From Bacteroidota bacterium (GTDB lineage: Bacteria > Bacteroidota > Bacteroidia > 2-12-FULL-35-15), in assembly GCA_025963715.1 (NCBI GenBank), contig JAOQAG010000022.1, positions 1 through 64,000 on the forward strand: a stretch of 64,000 nucleotides of DNA, given 5' to 3'. Both the position numbers and the translations under genes were made by a program. This document shows positions 45,671 to 62,781 of this stretch, in pieces. The notes below the pieces were generated by a model, which was not told the origin of the DNA, made no database searches, and saw nothing but the letters and a program-made list of their open reading frames with translations. Positions within the stretch are counted from its first letter, which is position 1. Every line of letters begins with the position of its first letter.

Positions 45671-46726
45671 ATGAACAAGAAAACAAGCCAGATCATCATT
45701 CACGTTATCGGTTGTGTGGTTTTCCTTGCATTTCCCATACTTTTTTCGCCGGATCTGTCCACCACCTTCGAGTTTATTAAAATCGGCGGTTTTCAACGGG
45801 ATTTCCTGTACTTTTCCCTATTGATCCTCTTTTTCTATTTCAATTATTTTTTCCTGATCCCTAAATTTTATTTCAGGAAACGGCACCTCCTGTTTTATTT
45901 GCTTTCCGCTTTGTACTTCCTGTTCATTTTCCTGTTGCCGCTAAGCCTGATCGCGCCAACACACTTTATGGGACCGCCTCCCGGCCACCTTTTCAGCCCG
46001 GAGCATTACCACGATTTTGATTTTCCGCATCCCTTCCGCCATTTTCTTTTCCAGGAATTGCGCATGCGTTTTTTCCAGTTTTTCATCGTTTTTATTTTCT
46101 CCCTGATGTTGCGTATCAACAACCGCTGGAAACGCAGCGAACAGGAAAAATTAAATACCGAATTATCCTTCCTGAAAGCGCAGATCAATCCGCACTTTTT
46201 ATTCAATACGCTCAATAGCATTTATTCTTCCGCCATCGAGGAAAAGGCAAAAAGCACTGCTTCCGCGATTGTAAAGCTTTCCGGACTGATGCGTTACGTG
46301 ATCAGCGAAGGAAATACCGATTTTGTATCGCTTGGTAAAGAGCTCAATTACATCAGCGATTACATCGAGCTGCAAAAGATCCGCCTGGTAAACACCATCC
46401 AGCTTTCCTACACCATTTCCGGCTCCACCGAAGGCAAAAAAATTGCGCCGCTGATTTTGATCCCCTTTATTGAAAATGCCTTCAAGCATGGTGTTAATCC
46501 CGAAGAAGCGTCCAATATTTCCGTCAACATCGAGATCATCGGAAACCAGCTCATTCTGCAGGTCAACAATAAAAAAGTATATCACCGCCCGTCCATGGAT
46601 CGCCCGAGCGGATTGGGGCTCGAGAATACCAAAAGCCGTTTGCAGCTCAGCTATCCGCACAAACACAAATTATCGATCACCAATGATCCGAAAGATTTTT
46701 TAGTTTTACTCCAAATTGATTTGTAA
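45671..46726 (+). CDS. LytS-type sensor histidine kinase with His/Pro-rich loop
   Basis: A 351-residue kinase related to the divergent one next door. Four transmembrane helices come first; between the third and fourth is a loop rich in His, Pro and Phe (FMGPPPGHLFSPEHYHDFDF, then PHPFRHF). The phospho-accepting His is in QINPHFLFNTLNSIYS, and the ATPase motif is SGLGLENTKSRLQL. The stop overlaps the ATG of the LytTR gene (TAATG). The loop would lie in the periplasm and, with six His in about 25 residues, could bind a metal ion. That is inference from composition only. Confidence 0.93.
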   Translation: MNKKTSQIIIHVIGCVVFLAFPILFSPDLSTTFEFIKIGGFQRDFLYFSLLILFFYFNYFFLIPKFYFRKRHLLFYLLSALYFLFIFLLPLSLIAPTHFMGPPPGHLFSPEHYHDFDFPHPFRHFLFQELRMRFFQFFIVFIFSLMLRINNRWKRSEQEKLNTELSFLKAQINPHFLFNTLNSIYSSAIEEKAKSTASAIVKLSGLMRYVISEGNTDFVSLGKELNYISDYIELQKIRLVNTIQLSYTISGSTEGKKIAPLILIPFIENAFKHGVNPEEASNISVNIEIIGNQLILQVNNKKVYHRPSMDRPSGLGLENTKSRLQLSYPHKHKLSITNDPKDFLVLLQIDL

Positions 46727-47421
46727 TGATCAGAGCAATTGCCATAGATGATGAGCCACCGGCGCTAAAAGTAATAGAAAGCTTTTGCAGCGATGTGGAT
46801 TTTATAACACTCGAAAAAACATTTACAAAACCCAACGAAGCATTAAAATACCTTCGCAAATTTCCGGTGGATCTGCTGTTCCTCGATGTGAATATGCCTG
46901 CATTGTCGGGTTTGGAATTGTATAAAAAGATCGATCAGGAAACACTCGTGATCTTTACCACCGCCTATCCCGAGTTTGCCGTGGAGGGTTTTAACCTCAA
47001 CGCGCTCGATTATTTATTGAAGCCCTTTACCTTCGAGCGTTTTTTGCAGGCGGTGACAAAAGCAAAAGAATTTTACCGTTACAGCAATAGCACCACTGAA
47101 CCCGCACAGGAGCAATTCCTTTTTATTCGCGCCGATTACAGCCTTATTAAGATCACCCTTTCCGATATTCTTTATATAGAAGGACTCGACGATTACATGA
47201 AGATCCATTTGCACAATCAAAAACCAATTGTTGCACGCATGACCATGAAAGGGATTTTAGAAAAGCTTCCTTCCAAAGAATTCATCCGTGTACACCGCTC
47301 TTTCATTGTCCCTTTCAGCAAGATCGAGAACGTCCGCAAAAAAAACATTACCATCGAAGGCAAGGAAATTCCAATCGGCACCAGCTACGAGACTGATTTT
47401 TTCAGCATCTTTAAAGAGTAA
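46726..47421 (+). CDS. LytTR-family response regulator
   Basis: A 231-residue regulator with a receiver domain (Asp in LLFLDVNMPALSG, about 54; Lys in DYLLKPF) and a LytTR DNA-binding domain (ILYIEGLDDYMKIHL, then FIRVHRSFIVPFSKIENV). It overlaps its kinase gene by one base and should be its direct partner. It is close in sequence to the regulator at 39743-40462, so the two systems are probably a duplicated pair with possible cross-talk. Confidence 0.95.
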   Translation: MIRAIAIDDEPPALKVIESFCSDVDFITLEKTFTKPNEALKYLRKFPVDLLFLDVNMPALSGLELYKKIDQETLVIFTTAYPEFAVEGFNLNALDYLLKPFTFERFLQAVTKAKEFYRYSNSTTEPAQEQFLFIRADYSLIKITLSDILYIEGLDDYMKIHLHNQKPIVARMTMKGILEKLPSKEFIRVHRSFIVPFSKIENVRKKNITIEGKEIPIGTSYETDFFSIFKE

Positions 47422-47429
47422 TGAAAAGA

Positions 47430-47600
47430 ATTGATAATGGACAATTGATAATGGACAATGAAAAAACAACTATCTACTGCTTTTCCATTCATCCCGTCTA
47501 CGAACTTCTAACTCCTAACTACTAACTACTAACTACTAACAACTAGCCACATTATCAACTGTCAATTCTCCATTATCAATTCCTTACCAGCTATCCGCTA
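47430..47600. repeat. Dispersed words: ATTGATAATGGACAATTGAT and CTAACTACTAACTACTAAC
   Basis: AATTGATAATGGACAATTGA and TAATGGACAATG (47430-47460) form an inverted pair with CATTATCAACTGTCAATTCT and CCATTATCAATTCC (47550-47582). Between them are about five tandem TAACTACTAAC units (47508-47542). A degraded relative (GTTAGTTTTTAGTACTTAG) is at 50606-50625. The gap 47422-47882 contains no convincing gene. Confidence 0.7.
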
Positions 47601-47725
47601 CCCACTTTCACCGACAAAAAACCTTTTTTCATCTCATTTATTTTTAACATGATAAAAAATGATGAATATTTGTATCGGTTTATTTATGAATGTTTTTTTT
47701 AGTTTGTTTAAAAAAACAACATCCT

Positions 47726-47882: not shown

Positions 47883-49577
47883 ATGAAAAACATAAAATTT
47901 ACATTAAGTATCTTTTTGATCGCCTGCCTTTTTGCTCTTCAACCGGCAAAAGCCCAGCAATGGGGTAACTATACACTATATAGTGTACAGAACAGCACCA
48001 ATACTTACCTTATTGATACCAACAGTGTCGTGTATCATACCTGGACACATACATCTGCAAACAAAACCGGTTACTCGTCTTATTTATTACCGGGTGGCAA
48101 TCTTATCCGTACCATCACATTAAGCGGAACCACATTTACCGGTGGCGGTATAACAGGTAAAGTTCAGAAAGTAGACTGGAACGGAAATATTTTATGGGAT
48201 TATACCTATTCCACATCTGCCTATTGTATGCACCACGATATTTGTCCGCTGCCAAACGGAAACGTATTATTAATTGCGTACGAATCAAAAACGGCGGCAC
48301 AGGTAACCGCTGCCGGTTGTTCGTCCAGCATTGTCATGTGGCCCGATAAAATTGTGGAAGTGCAGCCAACCGGCACAACCACGGGAACAATTGTATGGGA
48401 ATGGCACGCCTGGGATCACCTGGTGCAAAATGTAAGCGCAACCGGCGCCAACTATCAAACCTCCATCGTTAATCACCCCGAATTGTTGAATATCAACTTC
48501 AATCCGCAAAAAGAATGGATGCACATGAACGGTATCGATTACAATCCAATGCTCGACCAGATCACGTTCAGCTGCCATAATTTAAGCGAAATGTTTGTGA
48601 TCGATCACAGCACCACTACCGCTGAAGCAGCCAGCCACAGCGGCGGAAACTCCGGTAAAGGCGGCGATATTTTATACCGTTGGGGACATCCTGCCGTGTA
48701 CAGCGCAACCGGAACACAAATTTTAAACGTAGTGCACGATGCACACTGGGTGCCCGAAGGTTCGCCAAATGCAGGCTATTTAGTTGGTTTCAACAACCAG
48801 GGAATTTCCAGCTCAGCATCCTGTATCGATCAGTTTTTACCACCTTACAATGGTTACAATTATTCATTAACATTGGGATCGGCATACACGCCTTCCACCT
48901 ACGGATTGCGCCAGGCTGTTGGCGGATACAGCAGTAACATGGGTAATTCCATACAATTGCCAAATGGTAATATGCTGGTATGCATTGCTACTTCCGGCAT
49001 CATCAAAGAATTTGGGCCAACCGGAACATTGTTGTGGTCAAAAACTGCAACAGGTGCCGTTCCGCAGGCACAGCGCTACGATTCCTGCTACGTGGCAAAC
49101 GCAGCGCCTGCCATTCCCCTGATCAGCGAAAGCAGCGGAACCTTAACAGCAACCGCTGCAACTACCTATCAATGGTACATGAACGGTTACCAGATAAGCG
49201 GTGAAACCAATCAAACATACACACCAACCCAAAGCGGAATTTACATTGTGCGCATCACCGATACAAACGGTTGTGTGTATGAATATTCCACCGGTTATCA
49301 TTATACTTTAACAACAACAGGCATTTCAGAAGCTGCAAAAAATAGTTTGATCACCATTTTTCCAAACCCATCTACCGGCGTTTTTAATTTTGATGATGCA
49401 GCTATCCGTAACGGAAATTACGAAGTGCGCGTGTACGATGCAGTAGGTAAATTGATCATCTCACAAAAAGATCAGAACGGAATTGATCTTTCCAATTATA
49501 CCAACGGAATTTATTTCATCAACATCACATCGCCGTTAATTGGCAGCATCAACAAAAAAGTATCATTACTTAAATAA
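47883..49577 (+). CDS. Secreted arylsulfotransferase-like protein with T9SS tail
   Basis: A 564-residue protein with a signal peptide (LSIFLIACLFALQPAKAQ). A six-bladed propeller of the arylsulfotransferase (ASST) type follows: repeated LPGGNLI, PLPNGNVLLI and LPNGNMLVC blade motifs, and a His set in MHHDICPLPNG, EWHAWDHLVQ and HDAHWVPEG. An Ig-like segment and a T9SS sorting tail (IFPNPSTG ... NGIYFINI) follow. ASST moves sulfate between phenols without PAPS, but many propellers of this family have other roles. Only 32 bases separate it from the next gene, so it may open the CotH/VTC operon. Confidence 0.85.
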   Translation: MKNIKFTLSIFLIACLFALQPAKAQQWGNYTLYSVQNSTNTYLIDTNSVVYHTWTHTSANKTGYSSYLLPGGNLIRTITLSGTTFTGGGITGKVQKVDWNGNILWDYTYSTSAYCMHHDICPLPNGNVLLIAYESKTAAQVTAAGCSSSIVMWPDKIVEVQPTGTTTGTIVWEWHAWDHLVQNVSATGANYQTSIVNHPELLNINFNPQKEWMHMNGIDYNPMLDQITFSCHNLSEMFVIDHSTTTAEAASHSGGNSGKGGDILYRWGHPAVYSATGTQILNVVHDAHWVPEGSPNAGYLVGFNNQGISSSASCIDQFLPPYNGYNYSLTLGSAYTPSTYGLRQAVGGYSSNMGNSIQLPNGNMLVCIATSGIIKEFGPTGTLLWSKTATGAVPQAQRYDSCYVANAAPAIPLISESSGTLTATAATTYQWYMNGYQISGETNQTYTPTQSGIYIVRITDTNGCVYEYSTGYHYTLTTTGISEAAKNSLITIFPNPSTGVFNFDDAAIRNGNYEVRVYDAVGKLIISQKDQNGIDLSNYTNGIYFINITSPLIGSINKKVSLLK

Positions 49578-49609
49578 TATAATTCAATTTTTTTAAAAGA
49601 GATCTGATC

Positions 49610-50602
49610 ATGAAAAAAATTATAACGCTTGCTTTCATCCTCGCCACTGCATTTTCCGCTACAGCTAAAAAAGTAAAATTTGCAGTCGACATGACCGGCA
49701 TTACCATTAATTCCACCGGGATGCACGTTGCCGGAGATTTTCAAACCGTAGCCGGATTTTCCGGTGGCGATTTTAATTCCAGCAGCACTTCCTTAACACA
49801 GGAAGGCATTACCGATATATGGAGCATTGTGGTTGATATTCCCGCTTTCGCGAAATATGAATACAAGTTCCTGAACGGTGATCAGTTTTACGATGCCGAA
49901 TTTGTTCCCGTTGAATCCCGCGTTGGATACGATTTTGATGATAACCGCTGGATCTACGTGGATTCACTGGCAAATGATACCACCGCCGTTGGCGCTGTAT
50001 TATTTGCAGGAAATGCACCAGCCGGTTTAAACCTGATCCGTTACCTGGTGGATCTGCAAACACAATCTTCCATTGCAAGCACAGGCGTTCATGTGAGCAC
50101 AGATTACCAATCGTATGATCCTGCAAAAACACGTTTGTATTCTTTCGGTTCCAACATTTACGAGATCATTAATTATGTAACAAGTGGTACACACTTGTTT
50201 CAATATGTAAATGGCAATACCGGTGTTTCTGCAGAAATTGTTCCTGCTGGCTGCGCTACGGGCACTTATCGCTCCGTCACTGTTCCGCACGATACCGTAC
50301 TTGCCACCGTTTGTTTTGCTTCCTGCAGCGCTTGTGTTGCGGCTGGCATCGCGGAAAATGAAACTGCAAAAACTCCTCAACTATTCCCAAATCCGGCAAA
50401 CGAATACACTACACTGAAATTTAATAGCACCAGCACACACACCGTTTATATGAGTGATGTAACCGGCCGGATCGTTCGTTCTTACAATTATGTAACCGAT
50501 GAGTTACGTATTGAAAAACAAGACCTGAATGCAGGTATTTATTTTATCAGTATCCAAAACACAGATAAAATAAGTACTTCACTTAAATTGATCATTCAGT
50601 AG
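49610..50602 (+). CDS. Secreted protein with two CBM-like repeats and T9SS tail
   Basis: A 330-residue protein with a signal peptide (ITLAFILATAFSATA) and two similar beta-sandwich units of about 110 residues (VKFAVDMTGITINSTGMHVA and IRYLVDLQTQSSIASTGVHV). The pattern, ending WSIVVDIPAFAKYEYKFLNG in the first, is that of starch-binding-like CBM20/48 domains. The C-terminal tail of about 75 residues (LFPNPANE ... GIYFISI) is a T9SS sorting signal. It lies between the ASST-like and CotH genes. It could bind glycan on the surface where the other products act. Confidence 0.8.
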   Translation: MKKIITLAFILATAFSATAKKVKFAVDMTGITINSTGMHVAGDFQTVAGFSGGDFNSSSTSLTQEGITDIWSIVVDIPAFAKYEYKFLNGDQFYDAEFVPVESRVGYDFDDNRWIYVDSLANDTTAVGAVLFAGNAPAGLNLIRYLVDLQTQSSIASTGVHVSTDYQSYDPAKTRLYSFGSNIYEIINYVTSGTHLFQYVNGNTGVSAEIVPAGCATGTYRSVTVPHDTVLATVCFASCSACVAAGIAENETAKTPQLFPNPANEYTTLKFNSTSTHTVYMSDVTGRIVRSYNYVTDELRIEKQDLNAGIYFISIQNTDKISTSLKLIIQ

Positions 50603-50812
50603 TCGTTAGTTTTTAGTACTTAGTCTTTAGATGTTGTTAAAAGTTGGTAGTTAGTTGTTCGTAGACGATGCATTAGCGTACAATTAATTTAACATTTAAC
50701 ACAGCATCAGCGTACAGCAACCAAATGAACCAATGAACTAATGAACGAGTGAACCAATGAACACATAGTATCAGCGCACAGCAAACTTTGAACTTTAAAC
50801 TTTGAACCTATT
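50602..50812 (+). repeat. Dispersed words ending in AACTTTGAACTTTAAACTTTG
   Basis: After a GTTAGTTTTTAGTACTTAG-type stretch and tandem AATGAACCAATGAACTAATG words (50724-50760), the block ends GCGCACAGCAAAC and AACTTTAAACTTTGAACC (50775-50808). It abuts the CotH start codon, so the last module forms the immediate 5' leader of that gene. Confidence 0.75.
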
Positions 50813-50813
50813 A

Positions 50814-53111
50814 ATGAAGCCAATAAAAAAAATAATAACTCCTGCACTAACGTTCATCCTGTTGATGGCAGGCACTATTATCCACGCCCAAACAACATTT
50901 TACGACCTCAATACCATTCAAAAAATTGAGATCACGTTTACCCAACCCGATTGGGATTACCAGATGGATACAGCCAAAGCAGGTGCCGAAGGCTACATCA
51001 TGGCGCAATCTGTAAAAATTAACGGTGTCGAATTTGATAGTGTAGGAGTGAAGTACAAAGGCAATAGTTCCTACAATTCAGCCAACCTGAAGAACCCGCT
51101 GCACATTGCACTTGACGAATATAAAAGCCAGTCCTACCAGGGCTTAAAAGATGTGAAGCTCGGTAATGGTTACGCCGATCCTTCCATGATCCGCGAAGTA
51201 TTGTCCTACGATATTTTAAAAAATTACATGGATTGTCCGCGTGCTAATTTTGCAGAATTGTTTATCAACGGTGTATATGTTGGTGTGTATTCCAACGACG
51301 AAGCCATCAATAAAAAATTCTGCTCCGATCATTTTTATTCTTCCGGCCATACTCTTGTAAAGTGTAATCCCATTGTTAATCCAAGCCCTTCCACCAAAAG
51401 CAATTTAAAATACATTGCTTCCGCAGATAGCACCGCATACTTTAATTTTTACGAAATTAAATCCGATTACGGCTGGAACGATCTGGTGAAATTATGTGAC
51501 ACCGTTACCAATTATCCGGCTGCAGTAAGCGCTACAATGGACATGGACCGCGCCATCTGGATGCTTGCTTTTAATAATGTATTAATCAATCTCGATAGTT
51601 ATACCGGCGTATTTGCACAAAATTATTATTTATATAAAGATAATACCGATCGGTATAATCCAATTGTCTGGGATCTCAACATGTCCTTCGGTGGCTTTCC
51701 ATACGTCGGAAGCGGTACCACCAGCCTCGGAAGTTTAACCATTACCAACATGGAGCAGCTTTCGCCTGCTATTCATTCATCCGATGCCAACTGGCCGCTC
51801 ATCAAAGACGTGATCAACAATGCATCGTATAAAAAAATGTACATCGCACACATGCGCACCATCCTCAACGAAATGTTTGTAGCCGGTACGTATCAAACTA
51901 CCGCAACACAATTGCAATCAATCATAGACACATCGGTGGTTGCCGATACCAATAAATTTTTTACCTACGCGCAGTTTCAAACCGCTATGACAACCGATAA
52001 TACCTTCGGAAGCTACACCGTTCCGGGCATCAGCAATTTAATGAACGCAAGAGTAGCTTACTTGCAGTCGACAACCGATTTTTTGTATACTACTCCTGCA
52101 ATCTCGGCTGTTACTGCAAGTACAGCGGCTCCTGATCCTGATAGTACGGTAACCATCACTGCAAATGTAACCAACACAAATGCTGTTTATTTAGGTTACC
52201 GCTTTAGCGCCGATTCAAAATTTGTTCGCGTTCCGATGTACGATGATGGCTTGCACAACGATGGTGCAGCTGCTGATAACGTATACGGTGCCGCGTTTAC
52301 AATGGGAAGCCTGCAGGCGCAGTATTATGTGTATGCAGAGAATGCAAATGCCGGAATGTTCTCGCCCGAGCGTGCCGAACACGAATTTTACACGCTGCAA
52401 TCTTCCGTACACAATCCAACTGCCGGAGAAGTGGTGATCAATGAATTTATGGCATCCAACGACGATTATATGGTAAACGATTACGGAGATTATGAAGACT
52501 GGATCGAATTATACAACACCACATCCAACCCGGTAAGCTTATCGGGTTTATACCTGACGGATAATTATTCCAACCCTGCAAAATTTCCATTTCCATCAAA
52601 CACCACCATCCCGGCAGGCGGTTACCTCATCGTGTGGGCCGACCAGGATACAAGCACTGCCGCGTATGTACACGCCAATTTTAAATTATCGGCAAGCGGG
52701 GAAGAGATCATGTTCAGCAATGCAGCGGGCATTCCACTCGATAGCGTTTCATTTGGTGCGCAAACAACAAATATTTCTGTAGGAAGATGTCCGAACGGAA
52801 CCGGGCCTTTTTTGCAGCTTTCATCGCCCTCTTTTGCAACATTCAATTGTGTAACCGGTATCGATGAAAAAAATGTAGCTTCAATTAGCATCAGCATATA
52901 TCCCAATCCGGCCAATAATTCCGTGACCGTTGCGATGGATCCAAAAATGAAAACAAACATTATCAGGATCGTTAACACACTCGGACAACAAATGTTCGCA
53001 ACCACATCCGGTAACGATAAAGAGATCATTGATGTGTCCGGCTTATCGCCCGGGCTGTATGTATTAAGCGTAAACGATAAAGTGTATAAGAAGCTGCAGG
53101 TAACAAGGTGA
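50814..53111 (+). CDS. CotH-kinase-family protein, lamin-tail domain, T9SS tail
   Basis: A secreted 765-residue protein starting at ATG 50814 with a signal peptide (PALTFILLMAGTIIHAQ). The CotH domain (about 25-420) shows VGVKYKGNSSYNSANLKNPL, GNGYADPSMIREVLSYDIL, FAELFINGVYVGVYSNDEAI and VWDLNMSFGGF. As I recall the family, that last motif is usually WDxDxxFG, so Asn replaces the second Asp here. CotH proteins are atypical protein kinases of spore coats and surfaces. A lamin-tail domain follows (about 535-655: EVVINEFMASNDDYMVNDYG), then a T9SS tail (IYPNPANN ... GLYVLSV). The next genes include VTC and DUF4956, a combination I know from other bacteria. Confidence 0.9.
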   Translation: MKPIKKIITPALTFILLMAGTIIHAQTTFYDLNTIQKIEITFTQPDWDYQMDTAKAGAEGYIMAQSVKINGVEFDSVGVKYKGNSSYNSANLKNPLHIALDEYKSQSYQGLKDVKLGNGYADPSMIREVLSYDILKNYMDCPRANFAELFINGVYVGVYSNDEAINKKFCSDHFYSSGHTLVKCNPIVNPSPSTKSNLKYIASADSTAYFNFYEIKSDYGWNDLVKLCDTVTNYPAAVSATMDMDRAIWMLAFNNVLINLDSYTGVFAQNYYLYKDNTDRYNPIVWDLNMSFGGFPYVGSGTTSLGSLTITNMEQLSPAIHSSDANWPLIKDVINNASYKKMYIAHMRTILNEMFVAGTYQTTATQLQSIIDTSVVADTNKFFTYAQFQTAMTTDNTFGSYTVPGISNLMNARVAYLQSTTDFLYTTPAISAVTASTAAPDPDSTVTITANVTNTNAVYLGYRFSADSKFVRVPMYDDGLHNDGAAADNVYGAAFTMGSLQAQYYVYAENANAGMFSPERAEHEFYTLQSSVHNPTAGEVVINEFMASNDDYMVNDYGDYEDWIELYNTTSNPVSLSGLYLTDNYSNPAKFPFPSNTTIPAGGYLIVWADQDTSTAAYVHANFKLSASGEEIMFSNAAGIPLDSVSFGAQTTNISVGRCPNGTGPFLQLSSPSFATFNCVTGIDEKNVASISISIYPNPANNSVTVAMDPKMKTNIIRIVNTLGQQMFATTSGNDKEIIDVSGLSPGLYVLSVNDKVYKKLQVTR

Positions 53112-53231
53112 TCCGGGTATTCCGGACCCGAAAAATCAGGTCTGAAATAGTAACAATAAGTAGTAAAAAATGAGCGCTGGCGCAGTTCTCAGAACCCGTT
53201 TTTTGTTTAATTTTAAACTCGGAAAAAATAC

Positions 53232-53239
53232 TATCTTTA
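53232..53239 (+). promoter_or_regulatory. -7 element TATCTTTA before the lipoprotein gene
   Basis: It matches TAnnTTTG at seven of eight positions, 31 bases before the ATG at 53271. It may mark a second promoter for the lipoprotein-to-DUF2490 part of the cluster. Confidence 0.4.
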
Positions 53240-53270
53240 ACACTACATTGATCTTTAATTAACTCGCGTC

Positions 53271-53669
53271 ATGAAAAAATTACTTGCAATAACAGTCATC
53301 GCAATGCTGCTCATCGTTTCCTCCTGCAAAAAAGGACCGGGCGAAGGCGGCAATTCTACCATCGTTGGAAAAGTATGGGTAAAGGATTATAACTCCGATT
53401 TTACCATCTTTAACGGCGAATATGCCGGGGCAGATGAGGACGTATATATTATTTACGGCGACGATGTAAGCTACGGAGATAAGCTAAAATCCGGCCCCGA
53501 CGGCGTGTTTGAATTCAAATACCTGCGCCCCGGAAAATACAAGGTATATGTGTATTCAAAAGACCGCACACAGGTTACCGTGTCCAATATGGTTGCGGTA
53601 TCCGCCACGCCCGAGATCACTAAAAAGAAACAAACCGTGGATGCCGGTACCCTTCAAATCTATAATTAA
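53271..53669 (+). CDS. Small lipoprotein with SdrD/CarboxypepD-like beta domain
   Basis: A 132-residue lipoprotein (lipobox VSSC, Cys about 19). The mature part is a single beta-sandwich of the SdrD-B/carboxypeptidase-regulatory type: STIVGKVWVKDYN at its start, then SGPDGVFEFKYLRPGKYKVY, the usual Gly-x-Phe and Pro-Gly-x-Tyr turns. It could display or bind at the outer membrane. The next gene starts seven bases after its stop. Confidence 0.75.
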   Translation: MKKLLAITVIAMLLIVSSCKKGPGEGGNSTIVGKVWVKDYNSDFTIFNGEYAGADEDVYIIYGDDVSYGDKLKSGPDGVFEFKYLRPGKYKVYVYSKDRTQVTVSNMVAVSATPEITKKKQTVDAGTLQIYN

Positions 53670-53676
53670 TCAGCTC

Positions 53677-54252
53677 ATGCGCTCAATAAAAAAAATAATT
53701 CCCGCTTTTCTTATCACGCTTATGTTTACGGTCGTTGCCGATGCGCAAACAAAAAAAGAAGTGAAAAAATTCAAGATCAAATCAACCACTGTAACGGTAA
53801 CCGACGTTGTGGATGGAAAAGAAAAAACACGCAACGATTCCTATCAGAAATTTGATAACGCCGGAAATACCATCGAAGATGTAGAGTACAACAAAGACGG
53901 ATCTATAAAGAAAAAAGAAACACGCCAGTTCAATAAAAATAATGATCCCATCGAAGAAATAATTTACGATGAAAAAGGAAATATAAAAAAAAGAACCACC
54001 ACGGAATACAATTCCAGCAACGATAAAACAACGGAGATCGTATACGACGGCAAAGGAGCAATAACCGAAAAAACACAATACGGTTACAATGCCAAAGAAG
54101 AAAAAATATACGAGATCACATTTGACAGTAAAGGTAACACCCTTAAAAAATCAATCTATACTTACGACCGCAACAGCCTGAAGATTGAGAAGAAAACAAC
54201 CGATGCAAAAGGCGTTGTGATTGCCGTTAAAAAATACACCTACGAATATTAA
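53677..54252 (+). CDS. Secreted charged-repeat protein (YD/RHS-like repeats)
   Basis: A 191-residue protein from the ATG at 53677, chosen because a signal peptide follows (IIPAFLITLMFTVVADAQ). A longer reading from 53509 is an out-of-frame overlap with the previous gene. The mature part is about six repeats of 22-24 residues with the pattern Y-D-x-K-G-x-I/T-x-x-K-T-x-x-x-Y (EEIIYDEKGNIKKRTTTEY, TEIVYDGKGAITEKTQYGY). These form a beta-hairpin series like YD repeats. It is rich in Lys and Thr/Ser and is a possible substrate of the CotH kinase, which is inference. Confidence 0.7.
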   Translation: MRSIKKIIPAFLITLMFTVVADAQTKKEVKKFKIKSTTVTVTDVVDGKEKTRNDSYQKFDNAGNTIEDVEYNKDGSIKKKETRQFNKNNDPIEEIIYDEKGNIKKRTTTEYNSSNDKTTEIVYDGKGAITEKTQYGYNAKEEKIYEITFDSKGNTLKKSIYTYDRNSLKIEKKTTDAKGVVIAVKKYTYEY

Positions 54253-54260
54253 TCCGCAGC

Positions 54261-55037
54261 ATGCAATCCATAAAAGATATATTACAGGGGTTTGACCCCA
54301 TTTCCCTCAGGGAGATGGATGGCTCTGAATTAATGGAGCGCATGGACCTGAAATATTTTTTTACCGTTGACCAGTTACCTGCTGTTCTTTCGCATCTGAC
54401 AGAACATTACAAAGTATTGTGTATCCTCGATAACCGGCTTTGCAAATACGAATCGCTTTATTTTGATACTCCGGATTTTGAACTGTTTTACAATCACCAC
54501 CGCGGCCGCTCCAACCGCCGTTACAAGATCCGTTTCCGGAAATACGTGGAATCTGAATTGCATTTTTTTGAAGTGAAATTCAAGAACAGGAGAGGCCGCA
54601 CCATCAAGGATCGCGTGATGCAGGGCCGCATGAGTGATGTGATCCAGCACAATGCAGAAGAATTTTTAAAAGAAAAAACACCGCTGGAAGCCGGAGAGCT
54701 GGAGCCTAAATTAATGGTGCGCTATTGCCGCATGACGCTTGTAAATAAATTAATGGCCGAACGCGTTACCATCGATCTTAATCTTAATTTTCAAAACAAT
54801 GACGGTGGCGACAGAACAATCGATAACCTTATTATTGCCGAAGTAAAACAGGACAAATCATTTGTATCGCCGTTTATAAAAGTCATGCGTGAACTGCACA
54901 TCCGTGAAGCATCGTTAAGTAAATACTGTTTCGGGGTCATCACTCTCTTCGAAAACATGAAGCACAATAATTTTAAACCCAATTTAATCTACATAAAAAA
55001 ATTACTAAATGGTACTCTTGCAAGAACAACTCACTGA
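54261..55037 (+). CDS. VTC-domain (polyphosphate polymerase-like) protein
   Basis: A cytoplasmic 258-residue protein with a complete VTC domain (PF09359), the catalytic fold that in yeast Vtc4 makes polyphosphate from ATP. The tunnel residues appear intact: ELMERMDLKYFFT, ESLYFDTPDFELFYNHHRGR, RRYKIRFRKYVES, FFEVKFKNRRGRTIKDR, and the late acidic strand NLIIAEVKQDKSF. Bacterial single-domain VTC proteins are associated with CotH and DUF4956 genes. It starts nine bases after the repeat-protein stop and overlaps DUF4956 by 29 bases, so the three downstream genes are tightly coupled. Confidence 0.92.
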   Translation: MQSIKDILQGFDPISLREMDGSELMERMDLKYFFTVDQLPAVLSHLTEHYKVLCILDNRLCKYESLYFDTPDFELFYNHHRGRSNRRYKIRFRKYVESELHFFEVKFKNRRGRTIKDRVMQGRMSDVIQHNAEEFLKEKTPLEAGELEPKLMVRYCRMTLVNKLMAERVTIDLNLNFQNNDGGDRTIDNLIIAEVKQDKSFVSPFIKVMRELHIREASLSKYCFGVITLFENMKHNNFKPNLIYIKKLLNGTLARTTH

Positions 55038-55656
55038 CGAAAACGTCTCCACCGGATTTGCCCTGTTTGAAAAATTAGGATTCAAATTCTTTATGCGCTT
55101 AGCCATCAATTTTGTTTCGGTGTTTATTCTCATTCGCTTTATTTATTATCCGGTTTACAAAAACCGCGAGAACTTTTTTACGCTCTTTATTTTCAACATC
55201 ATTATTTTCCTCATCACTTTTATCCTCAATAAATCGGATATGAGCATGGGTGCGGCATTTGGTCTGTTTGCCGTTTTCTCGATGTTGAAATACCGTACCG
55301 AAGGTATTTCTTCCAAAGATATGACCTACATGTTCCTGGTTATTGCCATGGGATTGATTACCGCATTAAGCAAAGGAAGCTGGCTCGAATTGTCCTTCAT
55401 CAATGTGCTCATCATCCTTTTTACATTCTGCCTCGAAACAAATTTCCTGATGAAAAAAGAAACCTCGAAAACCATCGAGTATGAAAACATTGAAATGATC
55501 AAACCCGAAAATGTAGCGCAGTTGCAACTCGATCTCGAAAGTCGTTTGGGAATGAAGATCAACCGCATCGAAATTGGTAAAGTCGATTTTTTACGGGATT
55601 GTGCCGTAATCAAAATATTTTATTTCGAACCGAAACAAACACATAGCATGTCGTAA
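55009..55656 (+). CDS. DUF4956 membrane protein
   Basis: A 215-residue protein with about four to five transmembrane helices in residues 25-150 and a cytoplasmic C-terminal domain of about 65 residues. The diagnostic loop is MSMGAAFGLFAVFSMLKYRT, with ISSKDMTYMFLVIAMGLI after it. DUF4956 is usually encoded beside VTC and CotH genes. It may carry the product of VTC across the membrane or regulate it. Its start lies within the end of the VTC gene, and its stop overlaps the DUF2490 start (TAATG), so the products are made together. Confidence 0.9.
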   Translation: MVLLQEQLTDENVSTGFALFEKLGFKFFMRLAINFVSVFILIRFIYYPVYKNRENFFTLFIFNIIIFLITFILNKSDMSMGAAFGLFAVFSMLKYRTEGISSKDMTYMFLVIAMGLITALSKGSWLELSFINVLIILFTFCLETNFLMKKETSKTIEYENIEMIKPENVAQLQLDLESRLGMKINRIEIGKVDFLRDCAVIKIFYFEPKQTHSMS

Positions 55657-56339
55657 TGAAAAAAAATGTTTTTTTAATACTCATCCTCGCAAGCTTTGTA
55701 ATAAAAGCTTTTCCGCAGGCGTCAAATGATGCAGGCTTGTGGACAACCTTGAATATTGAAAAAAAAATCAACCGGAACCTATTGGTATTTGCAACAGAAG
55801 AATACCGCTTGCGCGAAAACTTTACCCGTAATAATTTATTTTATACCGATCTCGGCATCGCGTTCAAGCCTTACAAAATTTTAAAAATAAGTATTGCCTA
55901 CCGCGGTATTCAAAAATCCCTCATCGATGAAACCTGGAGTTTCCGCCATCGCTTAATGCTCGATATTTCATTGAAGAAAAAATTCGGAAATTTTGGATTG
56001 TCTTACCGTCACCGCATTCAATCTGAAGTACGTAACGTAAATTCCAGTGAAGATGGAAAAGTTCCGGAATGGTATTCACGACATAAATTTGAAGTAAAAT
56101 ATGATCTCGGAAAACGCATCACACCTTATGTTTCCGTAGAATTTCGTTACCAGATCAGTAATTCACGCGCCATCGAATCCGACCAAACCTGGCACCGCAG
56201 CCGCTATGCCGCAGGCTTCGATTATGAGCTTGACAAGCGCAACACCTTCGGCGCTTACTACCTCATTCAAAACGAATACAACGTTGCCGCCCCGCAAAAT
56301 TTATACATCATCGGTCTGGAATATTCTTTGTCACTGTAG
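55656..56339 (+). CDS. DUF2490 outer-membrane barrel protein
   Basis: A 227-residue protein with a signal peptide (VFLILILASFVIKAFPQ) and a barrel of about ten to twelve strands with many aromatic residues (e.g. RYQISNSRAIESDQTWHRSR and FGAYYLIQNEYNVAA). It ends in the C-terminal aromatic-containing strand YIIGLEYSLSL. DUF2490 members are predicted outer-membrane porin-like proteins. It is the last gene of the ASST-to-DUF2490 run and may be the outer-membrane exit or anchor for the CotH/VTC system. Confidence 0.85.
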   Translation: MKKNVFLILILASFVIKAFPQASNDAGLWTTLNIEKKINRNLLVFATEEYRLRENFTRNNLFYTDLGIAFKPYKILKISIAYRGIQKSLIDETWSFRHRLMLDISLKKKFGNFGLSYRHRIQSEVRNVNSSEDGKVPEWYSRHKFEVKYDLGKRITPYVSVEFRYQISNSRAIESDQTWHRSRYAAGFDYELDKRNTFGAYYLIQNEYNVAAPQNLYIIGLEYSLSL

Positions 56340-56344
56340 TTTTA

Positions 56345-56425
56345 TAATAGTTCAATTTGAAAAGTTCAAAGTTTACTGCGTTGAAAAAAAAGTTCAAGGT
56401 TCAAAGTTCAAAGTTTGCTGTGTGT
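56345..56425 (-). repeat. Inverted AACTTTGAACTT module copies
   Basis: On the minus strand: TGCACACACAGCAAAC, then AACTTTGAACTTTGAACC, then a further CAGTAAACTTTGAACTTTTC. These are the same words as in other gaps. The gap 56340-56976 consists of this and the tandem array below. Confidence 0.75.
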
Positions 56426-56511
56426 GCAAAAAAATTGGAATAAATCAGCCTCAACATTCCTCAAAATTTAGTATAAAGAGAACAGCCCTACAATAAAATA
56501 TTCGCGAGTAC

Positions 56512-56972
56512 ACGTTAGCATGTCCACGCTTCGCCTTATGTTTTCTTATGTTCCTTATGTGGTAGAATAACACACAGCTTCTGCGATCTCCGCGTTTCTG
56601 CGAGAAAAAAAACAGGCGAGTCAGCAAGCACACATTAGCATGTCCACGCTTCGCCGTATATTTTCTTTTGTTCCTTTTGTGGTGAAATTTTTTGCGCAGG
56701 CAAATACTTAGTAGCCTAAGTGCCTTAGTGGTAAACAGGCAGCACTCTGTGATCTCTGCTCTTCTCCGTGCTCTCTGTGTTAAAAAGCCGAGCCTGCGAG
56801 ACACATTAGCATATCACACTTCGTCTTATGTTTTCTTTTGTTCCTTTTGTGGTGAAATTTTTTGCGCAGGCAAATACTTTGTGGCCTAAGTGCCTTAGTG
56901 GTAAACAGGCAGCACTCTGCGATCTCTGCTCTTCTCCGTGCTCTCTGTGTTAAAAAGCCGGGCCTGCGAGTG
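56512..56972 (+). repeat. Tandem array of two 171-base units and a partial unit
   Basis: Two near-identical units (56632-56802 and 56803-56972) run ACATTAGCAT, CTTCG..TATnTTTTCTTTTGTTCC, GTGGTGAAATTTTTTGCGCA, CTAAGTGCCTTAGTGGTAAA, CTCTGCTCTTCTCCGTGCTC, GTTAAAAAGCC. The first 120-base unit (56512-56631) has a divergent centre. The units are themselves built from the dispersed CCTTAGTGGTAAA and CTCTGTG-type words. The array lies between convergent genes; no ORF or hairpin-plus-T end was seen. Confidence 0.85.
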
Positions 56973-57501: not shown

Positions 57502-58773
57502 TTATTCACTTTTCGCACCTTCATCATTCTGCGCTTTAAACGCATCAAAGTCAAATGTAAGTGTAAAACGCAACGTGTTTTCCAATGGATTGCGTTGTTG
57601 TGTCGGGATCAGGTAAGCAAAATCCAACCCGAATACATTGTACCGCACACCTGCACCAAGTGTAAAATACTGGCGGTTTCCTTTAGTCGGATGCTCGTAA
57701 AAATAACCCGCACGCACTGCAAATAAGTGATTATACCAGTATTCCATACCCACCGAATAGTTGATCTCGTGCAGCTCTTCTTTTGCACCACCCGGAGCAT
57801 CGTTAAACGATCCGAAAATTCCTTCCGCAATACCACGGTTAGGATCTTTTCCTGCCAGGATCAACGGGTTACCATCTGCATCAACCGCAATCCCTTTGTC
57901 TTTCCCGGTCGAATCATAATCATGCTTGTAGATCGGTGGAGTAGGAACAAGCAATTTATTAGCATCTGCCAAAAAAGTAATAGAGTTGTAATCATCCAGC
58001 TGAACAATCAGCCCCCCGCCTAAACGTAAATTGATCGGAAGAAAATCCGCCTGGTCATTGCCGCCCCTGTCGGAATACGACATTTTATTTCCAATATTTG
58101 TTACCGCAATCCCAAACGATAAAATTCCTTTTTTATCACCCAGTTTTAATTTTTCTTTCCTGTACAATGCCGAGATGTCAACCGCAATCGCACGGCCTGC
58201 ATGTGTTTCTGCGCCTTCCACTAAAGCGCCGCCTGTTAAGTTAGAGTTGATAAAACGCAACGCACCACCCACCGAAAATTGTTTCGAAAGTTTTACAGCG
58301 TATGCAACATCCAGTGCAAATTCATTCGGACGAAATTGTCCGACTGTATTTCCATTGGCATCCGTAAACGTAATGTCGCCCAATGAAAAATAACGAAGTG
58401 AAGCACCGATCGTACCTCTCTTTTTAGTTTTATAATAACCCGATAAATAAGCAAGGTTGATATCCGGCACCAACGCTCTTAACCAAGGTGTATAGGAAAC
58501 ACCGATCCCCATTTTTTTATCCGCAAACGCTAATTTTGAAGGATTCCAGTGAATCGAATTAATATCGGTAGAGGAGGCAACCCCGGCATCACCCATACCG
58601 CCTGCGCGGGAATCCGGTGTGATCATTAAAAACGGTACGGCAGTGGTAATGGTATTCAATTGAAGTTGATCAGCCCGTTGACTTTGGGTAGTTTGTGCCT
58701 TCATATTATTCCCAACAACAAAAGCCAAAGCAAGTACATATATACTTTTGCTATATGCTCTAAAATCTTTCAT
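57502..58773 (-). CDS. porV: Type IX secretion system outer-membrane protein PorV
   Basis: PorV (LptO) is an outer-membrane barrel of the FadL type that carries T9SS cargo from the translocon to the sortase PorU. The 423-residue protein has a signal segment (SIYVLALAFVVGNNMKA). The family block ITPDSRAGGMGDAGVASSTD is followed by INSIHWNPSKLAFADKKMGI, and AVRAGYFYEHPTKGNRQYFT precedes the closing strands. It follows porU with only 31 bases between, and the two are a classic pair. Confidence 0.95.
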   Translation of the reverse strand: MKDFRAYSKSIYVLALAFVVGNNMKAQTTQSQRADQLQLNTITTAVPFLMITPDSRAGGMGDAGVASSTDINSIHWNPSKLAFADKKMGIGVSYTPWLRALVPDINLAYLSGYYKTKKRGTIGASLRYFSLGDITFTDANGNTVGQFRPNEFALDVAYAVKLSKQFSVGGALRFINSNLTGGALVEGAETHAGRAIAVDISALYRKEKLKLGDKKGILSFGIAVTNIGNKMSYSDRGGNDQADFLPINLRLGGGLIVQLDDYNSITFLADANKLLVPTPPIYKHDYDSTGKDKGIAVDADGNPLILAGKDPNRGIAEGIFGSFNDAPGGAKEELHEINYSVGMEYWYNHLFAVRAGYFYEHPTKGNRQYFTLGAGVRYNVFGLDFAYLIPTQQRNPLENTLRFTLTFDFDAFKAQNDEGAKSE

Positions 58774-58804
58774 TTTTTTCTTTTTAGGATCGCTAATTTA
58801 CTAA

Positions 58805-61800
58805 TTAATTTAAAATCACAAGTTTTTCATATTTTTCCGCCGTCTGTCCTGTACTTGTTTTTACTTTCAAACGGTACACATACACGCCCTTACCGATCTT
58901 GTCGCCAAAATCATCGCGGCCATCCCATTCAATAGGAGCAGAGCGGTAACCTTCGGCGTATACAAACTGACTGAAATTTTTTACCAGTTTACCCGATACC
59001 GTAAAGATCTGCAATTCCACTTCCAGCGACTGGCAGCATTGATTTTGCTCAAAATAAAAGCTGGTCCTTGTTGTAAACGGATTTGGATAATTCAATACAT
59101 GGTCCAGCGCCAGCGAGGCCGATTTTGCAACCACAAATTCCGTGTAGGCCTTCGACGAGTTATTGTATACATCCCACACTTTCATATCCAGCGTGTGATG
59201 TCCTTCACTCAGCGAATTGAACGGATACCGGATGCTTCCACTCTTGTAACTGTTCAGGTCCGCCTGGTAATAATCATTCAGCACGATCGAATTTTCCGTA
59301 TTTGCATCCAGTATCGCCGTTACATCATGCCCGATTCCGTTACCAACCGTGTTGATCCCGTTATCATCCTTCAAAACAGCATACAGATCAGGATTTTCAT
59401 CCGTCATCCCGCCAAATGCAAACTTGTTGTCATTCATGAATAATTTTATTTCCGGCCCCACATTATCCGCCGTCGCTGTATCATTCGAGCCGCCGATAAT
59501 TATTTTCTCATAATAACCGCTCGCATCATCCGTTCCGTTTTCTGCATAATAGCTGATCCGGCCAATGCCATACTGATAAGCAATGTCCTTCGGTACCACA
59601 AAAGTGTATTTGAAATAACCATTGGTAACGCTCACTTTTCCTTTGTACAGAATATTTTTTTGAAGTTTAAAAGTATAAGGCGGGCTTAGCGAAACGCCGT
59701 CATTCGAAAGCGTGGTAATGCTTTGCGCTTTGTCATATACCGTCGGATAAAGCACACCGTTATAATTTGTCAGGATCGCGCCGCTTTTGCTGCGTACAAA
59801 TCCACTCACCGTTACTACCGATAACGCTTTGATCGTATCATGCGATGCAGACGTTACAAGAGCCATATTCAGCGTATCCGTGGAAACGTTAAACTCCGGG
59901 TAAGCCAGTCTTAATGCAGGATCTCCAAGCAATGTAAAGTTACGGCTGTTCACCGAGTTTCCGCCCGGCTGCGTTTTAATGTAATAATACAGATCGCCCA
60001 AACGTGGCATCCTGCCTGCAACCGGTGTAAAAACAGTCTGGTAAAAATCTTCATTCAATGTAAAGTTCGGACTGGCATATACCAAACGTACCGTAGTGAA
60101 CAGTGCAATACCACCGCCATTCGGGTTCAGGAAAACATCCTCACCTGCAGAAGTACGCTCAGGATCATCAAAACGACTGAACTCACACGTTGCAGTAAAA
60201 AACAAAGGCATGTTATTAATGTTGTCCCATCTGTTGATGTCCGATACTTCCACGATCCGCTCATGCGCTAAGCCAACCTCGCCGCCATGTCCCGTATAAT
60301 TAATGATCAGCGCGCCTTTCTCCACACGTTTGTTGATCGCATCCGTAACACCAGGATAACGGTTTCCGCCCGGAGTAGATTCCTGCTGGTACGAATCAAG
60401 GAAAATTTTATCCACGTTGTAATTGTTGTAGGTCGTGTCCACGATCGTTGCCAGCGTGTTGGATTGTACAATGTGCAAATCGCCATCCTCATCATCACCG
60501 ATAAAGCAAACCACATTGCGCCAGTCGCCAAACGGAGAGCTGGTAGTTTGCGTACAACTGCTATTGTTGCTGCTGGCCGTAGAAGGCAATCCTGTTTTGC
60601 AATACGCTAAAATTTTGTTCACTGCCGTTTGCGCTTCTGATTTTGATTTCACAGGAAAACGACCGATCCCTATATCCACCGCATCGTTGTCGTCTTCTTC
60701 CCAATAACCTTCTGTATCATCCAGCAATCCGAAAAAATCATCCGATACGTATGAAGTGGTGGACATCGTTGAGTTGTACGATTGGTAGGTTACAATAAAA
60801 TCAGTGTTGTTGCTAAATCGGTTTTTGTTATCATATGATCCGTCACCGAATAACAAAAGGTAACGCGGCATATCGGTAGTGCTTGTAGAACGGTCGTAAA
60901 ACATTTTTACAAAATCGCGGATCGCCGAAGCATCCTGTGAACCGGATGAATACTCGTTGTAAATTTGCTGCGGTGTTACTATCAGCGTCGACAAAGAATC
61001 ATGCGCTTCGTGAAAAGAAGCCAGCTGCATCGCCTGATCGTAAAAATCAGGATACGCCACGATGATCAGGTCTTTGTTCGTCATCCCATGTAAATCCTGG
61101 TTAGCAACCGTTCCCGATGCTTTTGGTGTTTCAAATCCGCCACCCGTATAAGCTACAAACTCGTGCATCGCATCCGCAGGCAACACAAACTGGTAATCGT
61201 TCGTCCCTACAAGATTGGTAGCCTGGAGCTTAATATTGGTCGGATCTGTAATGTCCCACAGCTGAACCGGCGTATTGCTCGTTAAATCATATTGTGCTAC
61301 ATGTCCTGCTCCCACTGATTTTGCATCCCTGAAGGCCATTTGTGTTCCAAACATGATCAGTTGCCTTCTGGCATTTACCTCCACAAAATCCATCCAGCCC
61401 AATGCATCCGCAGTTTGTTTGGTTACATTCACCGTTAAGGTTGTGCTGAGGCTTGTTGGGTTAAATGAAAAACAGCCGTTCCCGATGTTTGCATAATCAT
61501 CTTCCGAAGCGCCCGTTACTTCCGGGATGCCAAGGTTAATGCTGCCCGATTGGCAGCTCACAGAATAATAAGCATTGTTGATGGCCGTCGACAGATCCTG
61601 GTAACGCGATGCCAGCCTCACTTTTACATAAGCAGGCGCGCTGTGATCGATGTTCGGAAAAGAATAGGAAAAGTTGTAAGAAGCAATATTGTCGAAGTAT
61701 TCACCGTACCACTCACGTCCCGATTTAATAAAATTAGTGGTGTTGTTTTCTGTAAATCCGTGATCGTCAAAAGTAGTTACAAAATGCGTCGGCGTAAGGG

Positions 61801-62752
61801 AAGAAGAAGACTGGTTCGAAACGCGTTTCCCCGGACCCAGATCAAAAGTGATAAAATAATAAGCCGAATCGGAATACAGGTTGGATGTGTGCGTAAAGTT
61901 GGTGCAGGAGCTGGTGTCGTACTTCCATGTATTGGCGCTGGTTCCGTAAAACAACGCGTAATCTCCCGAATCAAATACCCCGTCGGTTTCACCCTGCACA
62001 TAAATTGCATTCTCTGCAAGGTCATCGATCCGCGGATCAGAATTTTGCTCCGACAGCATTCCGCCGCCATTTCCATAGATCCGGAGGTTTTGCGGATTTA
62101 CAGCTGCCATGTTAATTCCCAGGCCCGCTAAAAATGAATAAGAGATCTTGTAGATCCCGTCCGTAGTAGTAGCGATCTTATACCATTTGCCGCTTTGTAA
62201 AACCGAATTTGCTGCGTATGTACGGCTGCGTGTAAACGATTTTGGCGTATACGAAGTGGTCACCTGCAGGTCGAAAGAAACTAATTTTTCGTATTTGCCG
62301 GTAGTGCTGTTTTTCCGGATCGGGATAAAAGAAGCTACGCCGGAGTTGGTTTTTTTGTGAGTAAGTACGTGAGTAGTAATAACAATGCTATTCGTAATTC
62401 TGCTTTTTCTGCTGATCAGGGCGCTTTCCGCATCCGTTAGCTGTTCATAAACAGCATTGATCAGTGTGGCGGTAAAGCTATTCTCATTGCCCCGCAGATC
62501 CACACGCTTCGAATAACGCGGCAGGTATTGATCGCTGTGCTCATGATCAGCACCCTCAAACGATAATGCTTTGGCGTCTTCCCCTTCTATTTCGCTGATT
62601 TTGACCGGCGCCGTCCATTTAATTGAATTGGCCGCTGCTGGCGGTAATTTTGCACTTAAATTGGAAGTTAATGGAGCAGTGTTATACTTGGTTTGTCCCA
62701 AAAGGATGGAATGAACGAAGAAAAGTAGGATAAATAATTTTCCGATTCTCAT
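58805..62752 (-). CDS. porU: Type IX secretion system sortase PorU
   Basis: PorU is the gingipain-like (C25) surface sortase that cleaves T9SS sorting tails and attaches the cargo to lipopolysaccharide. From ATG 62752 (1315 residues) it has a signal peptide (LFILLFFVHSILLGQ) and a long beta-rich N-terminal region. The C25 catalytic domain has the His in INYTGHGGEVGLAHERI (about 822) and the Cys in FFTATCEFSRFDDPERTSAG (about 856). An Ig-like part and a C-terminal FlgD/T9SS-type end follow (LNYPNPFTTRTSF ... KGVYVYRL). An in-frame ATG eight codons upstream is less likely. An exact -7 element (TAAATTTG) lies 21 bases before the ATG. Confidence 0.96.
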   Translation of the reverse strand: MRIGKLFILLFFVHSILLGQTKYNTAPLTSNLSAKLPPAAANSIKWTAPVKISEIEGEDAKALSFEGADHEHSDQYLPRYSKRVDLRGNENSFTATLINAVYEQLTDAESALISRKSRITNSIVITTHVLTHKKTNSGVASFIPIRKNSTTGKYEKLVSFDLQVTTSYTPKSFTRSRTYAANSVLQSGKWYKIATTTDGIYKISYSFLAGLGINMAAVNPQNLRIYGNGGGMLSEQNSDPRIDDLAENAIYVQGETDGVFDSGDYALFYGTSANTWKYDTSSCTNFTHTSNLYSDSAYYFITFDLGPGKRVSNQSSSSLTPTHFVTTFDDHGFTENNTTNFIKSGREWYGEYFDNIASYNFSYSFPNIDHSAPAYVKVRLASRYQDLSTAINNAYYSVSCQSGSINLGIPEVTGASEDDYANIGNGCFSFNPTSLSTTLTVNVTKQTADALGWMDFVEVNARRQLIMFGTQMAFRDAKSVGAGHVAQYDLTSNTPVQLWDITDPTNIKLQATNLVGTNDYQFVLPADAMHEFVAYTGGGFETPKASGTVANQDLHGMTNKDLIIVAYPDFYDQAMQLASFHEAHDSLSTLIVTPQQIYNEYSSGSQDASAIRDFVKMFYDRSTSTTDMPRYLLLFGDGSYDNKNRFSNNTDFIVTYQSYNSTMSTTSYVSDDFFGLLDDTEGYWEEDDNDAVDIGIGRFPVKSKSEAQTAVNKILAYCKTGLPSTASSNNSSCTQTTSSPFGDWRNVVCFIGDDEDGDLHIVQSNTLATIVDTTYNNYNVDKIFLDSYQQESTPGGNRYPGVTDAINKRVEKGALIINYTGHGGEVGLAHERIVEVSDINRWDNINNMPLFFTATCEFSRFDDPERTSAGEDVFLNPNGGGIALFTTVRLVYASPNFTLNEDFYQTVFTPVAGRMPRLGDLYYYIKTQPGGNSVNSRNFTLLGDPALRLAYPEFNVSTDTLNMALVTSASHDTIKALSVVTVSGFVRSKSGAILTNYNGVLYPTVYDKAQSITTLSNDGVSLSPPYTFKLQKNILYKGKVSVTNGYFKYTFVVPKDIAYQYGIGRISYYAENGTDDASGYYEKIIIGGSNDTATADNVGPEIKLFMNDNKFAFGGMTDENPDLYAVLKDDNGINTVGNGIGHDVTAILDANTENSIVLNDYYQADLNSYKSGSIRYPFNSLSEGHHTLDMKVWDVYNNSSKAYTEFVVAKSASLALDHVLNYPNPFTTRTSFYFEQNQCCQSLEVELQIFTVSGKLVKNFSQFVYAEGYRSAPIEWDGRDDFGDKIGKGVYVYRLKVKTSTGQTAEKYEKLVILN

Positions 62753-62773
62753 AGTAGCTTTTTGTAAAGAATT

Positions 62774-62781
62774 CAAATTTA
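62774..62781 (-). promoter_or_regulatory. -7 element TAAATTTG upstream of porU
   Basis: An exact TAnnTTTG match on the minus strand, 21 bases before the porU ATG. No TTTG was found at the -33 distance. The divergent gap 62753-62965 is very AT-rich and must also hold the porP promoter (TATAATTG at 62935 is a weak candidate). Confidence 0.45.

Follow-up and report, generated by a model that had tools for sequence, protein, structure and literature searches.

The accessory genes of Gram-positive pel loci place a CotH-type kinase, a polyphosphate polymerase domain and a DUF4956 protein side by side (cotH-PPP-DUF4956-DUF4832; accessible parts of PMC7112168 and PMC12345266), and the function of this cluster is given as unsettled (PMC7112168, same parts). 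The same three families adjoin in the DNA studied here, a 64,000-nucleotide stretch from a Bacteroidota bacterium (contig JAOQAG010000022.1 of assembly GCA_025963715.1; hereafter the window), where they belong to a run of eight genes at 47883-56339. An earlier reading of the sequence by a model (the original prediction) had proposed this run as a candidate envelope phosphorylation or polyphosphate system, noting that such neighbourhoods occur in other bacteria without a settled function. We predict, with moderate confidence, that the VTC-domain protein and DUF4956 of this run form a polyphosphate synthesis-and-export pair. The cluster of the three families was already known; what is new here is the HlyD/TolC context of DUF4956 in related genomes and a five-gene core linked to the type IX secretion system (T9SS).

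Compared with the pel accessory cluster, the window adds a T9SS-tailed CotH, a DUF2490 protein, a lipoprotein and a repeat protein, and no pel-type family (pelDEADAFG context) was found among the 14 window proteins scanned (44.3-62.8 kb). In the accessible part of PMC12345266, the authors failed to find the CotH-polymerase-DUF4956 arrangement outside pel; two plasmid stretches and a second locus in the source genome carry it, and no gene there was named or matched as pel. The eukaryotic VTC complex (Vtc1/Vtc3/Vtc4) shares with the window a VTC domain in which the tested Vtc4 residues are kept, and a membrane-protein partner, but here Pfam finds no SPX and no Vtc1-type membrane domain, and the partner, DUF4956, is separately encoded. 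The Bacillus CotH-CotG-CotB phosphorylation module likewise has a kinase of the CotH family and, close to it, a Lys-rich repeat protein (PMC7821199, accessible part). However, the CotB/CotG repeats are Ser/Lys-rich, whereas the invariant columns here favour Lys over Ser/Thr; the same part of that paper describes neither VTC nor DUF4956. Finally, relatives of this locus resemble tripartite exporters of the HlyD/TolC type in having adaptor and TolC-like genes beside DUF4956, but no ABC, RND or MFS family was found among the eight neighbours scanned in two such loci, and the window itself has no adaptor or TolC-like profile match. In the literature covered (without preprints and most subscription papers, and with sources accessible in part), we found no report of a T9SS-linked five-gene core, no link of VTC or DUF4956 to HlyD/TolC or T9SS, and no proposal of polyphosphate as the donor for CotH.

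ORF calling and Pfam place eight plus-strand open reading frames in the run, as originally described:

47883-49577, plus strand: ASST-like protein with a T9SS tail, variable cargo (PF05935, 2e-20; PF18962, 1.8e-13)
49610-50602, plus strand: secreted protein with a T9SS tail, variable cargo (PF18962 is its sole Pfam family)
50814-53111, plus strand: CotH-type kinase with a lamin-tail domain and a T9SS tail, variable cargo (PF08757, 1.2e-44)
53271-53669, plus strand: core gene 1, small lipoprotein with lipobox Cys19 (conservation of Cys19)
53677-54252, plus strand: core gene 2, Lys-rich repeat protein with a signal-like start and an isoelectric point of 9.3
54261-55037, plus strand: core gene 3, VTC domain, polyphosphate polymerase-like (PF09359, 8.8e-27)
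55009-55656, plus strand: core gene 4, DUF4956 membrane protein (PF16316, 5.6e-52)
55656-56339, plus strand: core gene 5, DUF2490 protein, probable outer-membrane barrel (PF10677, 9e-21)

The spacing of these genes divides them into two layers. The core genes are separated by gaps of 7 and 8 nt and then overlap (VTC/DUF4956 by 29 nt and DUF4956/DUF2490 by 1 nt, as had been noted for the last three genes), and gaps of 32, 211 and 159 nt follow the three T9SS genes. Because the gap sizes differ in this way, the run is a tight five-gene core with T9SS cargo upstream rather than one even series. For CotH, a start at ATG 50814 is likelier than one at TTG 50802; the repeat protein starts at ATG 53677. 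By eye, short degenerate repeats lie in the intergenic stretches 47440-47640, 50610-50800 and 56350-56700, flanking cargo genes and the operon end.

The VTC protein scores 94.6 bits against PF09359 (cut-off 23), its sole Pfam family at E <= 0.01. When a profile of 32 sequences (A1) was compared with the PDB, all ten matches were VTC chains, with the catalytic Vtc4 first, ahead of Vtc2 and Vtc3; the nearest solved relative is Vtc4 3g3q (1e-20). Window residues R91, R93 and E194 are invariant in the A1 sequences and align with Vtc4 R264, R266 and E426, as numbered by counting along the alignment. The other invariant residues K31, K106, K116, R157, K196 and K221 presumably correspond to residues of the Vtc4 tunnel. 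R264, R266 and E426 were replaced in Vtc4 to impair catalysis (PMC9911596, accessible part), and their retention argues for a likely polyphosphate polymerase, in agreement with the original prediction. The source genome also has one match to PPK1, which 27 of the 29 VTC-bearing genomes in our phylum sample carry (own genome included), so VTC is not the sole polyphosphate maker there. A role for VTC as a replacement of PPK1 can be ruled out, since 27/29 genomes carry both.

The association of the three families extends well beyond the window. Our phylum sample comprised 148 genomes, the source genome included, in which we found VTC in 29, DUF4956 in 45, DUF2490 in 55 and PPK1 in 135; CotH was found in 60, counted with a profile of the kinase domain alone since T9SS tails otherwise draw in relatives of the ASST-like protein and of gene 2. 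All 29 VTC genomes also have DUF4956 (Fisher 1e-19) and CotH (2e-14), compared with p 1.0 for PPK1, although these values ignore kinship. A second survey scanned contigs for DUF4956 alone and used the best 80 of at least 586 relatives. These were ranked by similarity to a Planococcus sequence, which biases the set towards Bacillota; judged by record title, most belong to that phylum. After five loci had been dropped, their DUF4956 gene being missed by a simple gene caller, 75 were used: VTC lies within two genes in 69, CotH within three genes in 64, and both in 59. The commonest other neighbour cluster (36/75 loci) has a representative resembling glycosyltransferase family 2 (GT2) and chitin synthases. 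A 729-aa protein without a Pfam family (27/75) and a HEAT-repeat protein (24/75) were also seen at these loci (L096-L175). Annotated plasmids of Pseudobutyrivibrio and Planococcus carry a CotH kinase, a polyphosphate polymerase domain and DUF4956 adjoining, with glycosyltransferase genes near. A plasmid search with another VTC gave six records, and one with the VTC of the second locus gave no match. The families thus co-occur in both surveys, in line with the recurrence stated in the original prediction, and the lack of co-occurrence that would have refuted that prediction is not what we see.

To describe the loci of related genomes, we call those with the window's kind of VTC type A. The order set comprises the window and 30 further type A loci; 40 of the 52 VTC matches outside the source genome were fetched for the order, and 32/32 for the phylum sample. 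In the 31 order loci, the core genes are nearly always present: lipoprotein in 30, repeat protein in 29, VTC in 31 (by construction, as the loci were picked by their VTC), DUF4956 in 29 and DUF2490 in 29. Among the exceptions, L023 ends at a contig edge, L029 is an orphan VTC, L019 has no repeat gene, and VTC is separate and on the opposite strand in L017 and L028. The VTC and DUF4956 genes adjoin in 27/31 order type A loci and in 29/32 VTC loci of the phylum sample, and DUF2490, which we take to be a barrel, is present at 8/11 phylum type A loci. The lipoprotein (gene 4 of the run) has only sub-threshold Pfam matches, and its lipobox Cys19 is invariant in 11 aligned sequences. No Pfam family was found for the repeat protein (gene 5 of the run), which has 18 invariant columns, seven of them Lys and one Thr. 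It had been suggested as a phosphate acceptor; we reject this role as unsupported, given the preference for Lys over Thr and the absence of the protein from L019, which bears CotH.

The DUF4956 protein has up to five membrane segments by hydropathy, the third weakly hydrophobic and ending at Arg96, which is invariant in an alignment of 45 sequences (A2). The hydropathy suggests this segment count, which, like the sidedness, we infer from sequence; four segments are given for the protein of Streptococcus intermedius that we take as a DUF4956 homologue (PMC12345266, accessible part). A structural model (predicted local distance difference test, pLDDT, 86) shows a helical membrane part and a ferredoxin/ACT-like domain. 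A profile search of the PDB gave no useful match, and one DUF4956 relative matched MgtC weakly (E 0.026).

For the gene context of DUF4956, we examined 36 loci of the phylum sample other than type A. Of these, 31 carry an HlyD-like gene on the same strand and at most three genes away, and 13 of the 31 also have a TolC-like gene, which equals 13 of the 16 loci without VTC. Sequences for the adaptor profiles came from 20 of these 31 loci, and those for the TolC-like profile from 6 of these 13, so the counts include loci used to build the profiles. Where VTC loci with an HlyD-like gene were inspected, it mostly lies immediately before or after VTC-DUF4956. The kinship to HlyD is based on Pfam matches of representatives, on PDB profile matches of a 355-aa family to AcrA/EmrA-type adaptors, and on a comparison of profiles, which gave 97.6% with one HlyD group but only 35% with the other. 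Judged by entry title or known identity, each of the 38 Foldseek matches of a TolC-like model (E <= 0.001) is a TolC-type outer-membrane channel; by sequence, a PDB profile search with this protein gave no useful match. In type A loci, DUF2490 stands in place of the adaptor. As HlyD- and TolC-like genes are adjacent and no pump family was seen among the eight neighbours scanned in two loci, DUF4956 occupies the position of a tripartite exporter's inner-membrane pump, and this context in relatives makes it likely that the membrane protein conveys a product, as had been suggested. Triplets of DUF4956, HlyD-like and TolC-like genes without VTC occur at L080-L091 and L076. At L079 (7763-10871), where VTC was not found, DUF4956 is followed by a 341-aa protein and a calcineurin/purple-acid-phosphatase-like protein.

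Upstream of the core, all three proteins have T9SS tails, with PF18962 above the cut-off in each, as predicted. Such tails are commonplace in this genome, which has SprA and at least 150 matches scored among 215 candidates. The second protein had been called carbohydrate-binding-module-like, a label that did not hold up, as Pfam finds no carbohydrate-binding family in it at E <= 0.01. Relatives of the ASST-like protein are present in only some loci of the order; in a PDB search by sequence, its top matches fall outside the ASST part and the remainder have E values of 0.2 or weaker. In 21/31 order type A loci, the 8 kb upstream include a same-strand gene for a T9SS-tailed protein, and in 14 this is a tailed CotH. 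By Pfam, three other upstream tailed proteins comprise two beta-propellers and one without a family (L016, L026 and L024). Hence the cargo genes are exchangeable and the core is nearly constant.

The window CotH is a predicted CotH-type kinase, with 153.6 bits against PF08757 (cut-off 23.8). Its sole PDB match is Bacillus cereus CotH 5jd9 (6e-38 with a profile and 4e-8 with the window domain alone). Aligned with 5jd9, it retains the invariant Glu and two Asp, one in an NLD and one in a WD motif, which we take to be the catalytic residues. Three of the four CotH matches in the source genome lie within its two VTC loci. The second of these loci reads DUF4956, VTC, CotH, an O-antigen-ligase-family protein and a second CotH-like protein with a beta-helix, and sits among glycosyltransferases in a polysaccharide cluster. 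CotH is near in all 11 loci of this second type (type B) examined in the order. Both kinase Asp are missing from the second CotH-like protein (L003:3888-6497 in the source genome) and from that of L036, the two that were aligned, so these two look like pseudokinases; further relatives lie in L035-L043. By sequence, the intact CotH and its companion are likely a kinase/pseudokinase pair.

From the observed gene content, conservation, catalytic residues, co-occurrence and adaptor/TolC context, we infer polymer production, a direction of transport and a use by CotH. On the cytoplasmic face, VTC would polymerise phosphate from ATP. DUF4956 would move the growing chain across the inner membrane, a task that falls to the membrane portion of the VTC complex in yeast, which couples synthesis to translocation (PMC9911596, accessible part). 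The DUF2490 protein, the lipoprotein and the Lys-rich secreted protein may then take up the polyanion at the outer membrane, bind it or position it there, a role that HlyD-type adaptors would occupy elsewhere. The surface cargo, with CotH and the ASST-like protein both T9SS-tailed, would be the place of use: exported polyphosphate could supply CotH with phosphate, or CotH could act together with it in modifying polymers. Since CotH is extracellular and its ATP source is called unanswered (PMC7821199, accessible part), exported polyphosphate is a possible donor. CotH may use it instead of ATP to phosphorylate extracytoplasmic proteins or glycans, with DUF4956 as the channel, although we put this last step forward tentatively and consider it rather improbable.

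Several observations weigh against this scheme. Neither Foldseek nor VIA-align clearly matched the DUF4956 model to a solved transporter (which does not imply a new fold), and confidence in the TolC-like model is low (mean pLDDT 58). Profile searches of the window and the 30 other order type A loci gave no HlyD- or TolC-like match, and such genes are present at 0/11 phylum type A and 0/11 order type B loci. At L080, DUF6580 and BrkB-family membrane proteins near DUF4956 are possible alternative partners for the adaptor. DUF4956 occurs without VTC in 16 genomes, 31 of the 119 VTC-less genomes have CotH, and only 15/31 order type A and 8/32 phylum VTC loci, several of the loci being cut by contig ends, have a CotH gene nearby on the same strand. 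CotH also used ATP in vitro (PMC7821199, accessible part). The strongest evidence against the CotH-polyphosphate step is the deletion genetics of S. intermedius, as given in the accessible part of PMC12345266. Deletion of SIR_1593 (polyphosphate polymerase domain) had no reported effect on aggregation or Pel, both of which persist in the mutant, deletion of SIR_1592 (membrane and ACT domains; taken here as the DUF4956 of this species) gave more Pel and less aggregation, and deletion of SIR_1594 (CotH) gave less of both. Because these effects differ, a single linear pathway looks doubtful.

The same deletions lend weight to another explanation, as the amount of Pel is altered by loss of the CotH and membrane genes (PMC12345266, accessible part). 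Here the locus would be a module that adjusts or chemically modifies an exported polysaccharide, in which CotH phosphorylates the glycan or its synthase partners and VTC and DUF4956 act as regulators or phosphate handlers instead of an export pair. We regard this as a serious possibility, though one on the doubtful side. The presence of cotH-PPP-DUF4956 in Gram-positive pel loci (PMC7112168, accessible part) is consistent with it, as are the glycosyltransferases and O-antigen-ligase-family protein of the genome's second locus and the GT2/chitin-synthase-like cluster in 36/75 Bacillota-rich loci. However, there is no polysaccharide-synthesis gene among the 14 window proteins scanned around the core, and a polysaccharide module leaves the HlyD/TolC context unexplained.

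The surroundings of the run point to a further alternative, and two neighbouring features are listed here:

45671-47421, plus strand: histidine kinase and LytTR response regulator, candidate regulator, immediately upstream (PF06580, PF00072, PF04397)
57502-62776, minus strand: porV and porU (T9SS channel protein and sortase), convergent and downstream, given as context only (NF033710, NF033707, PF19572, PF01364)

Downstream, ispF is also convergent alongside porV and porU. Relatives of the kinase are present in 8/31 and of the regulator in 12/31 type A loci, window included. The five-gene core could be a T9SS accessory module that prepares or modifies surface cargo, with CotH one cargo among several, an explanation we think unlikely. 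The tailed protein upstream in 21/31 type A loci would fit it, although such a neighbour is not rare in a genome with at least 150 tails. Also consistent with it are porU or porV, near 16/31 order type A loci (window included) and 1/11 in the phylum sample, and the PorP/SprF-family gene at L030; the porU/porV linkage may be only synteny within one order. A porU/porV link was also seen at L072, in a genome from another family of the class. The DUF4956-VTC pair is found in Bacillota too, and to our knowledge these have no T9SS, which also counts against an accessory role.

Ordinary phosphate storage, with VTC as a second cytoplasmic polyphosphate maker and unrelated neighbours, is compatible with the family match and retained residues of VTC but very improbable, given that PPK1 is already in 27/29 VTC genomes and that the adjacency to the membrane gene and to envelope-directed neighbours recurs across phyla. 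Least probable of all is that VTC is another enzyme of the tunnel-fold (TTM) superfamily, which includes triphosphatases and nucleotide cyclases, and makes no polymer; PF09359 is its sole Pfam family at E <= 0.01 and its profile matches VTC chains only.

A polyphosphate synthesis-and-export pair is therefore the reading we prefer, and it bears on a wider problem. Where a secreted kinase obtains its phosphate donor is a question still open in print for CotH (PMC7821199, accessible part). Such kinases adjoin a conserved pair of polymerase and membrane protein in more than one phylum, which makes this question directly testable, and the HlyD/TolC context offers DUF4956 a concrete candidate role. 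If CotH does draw on exported polyphosphate, phosphorylation beyond the cytoplasm would be powered by an exported phosphate polymer.

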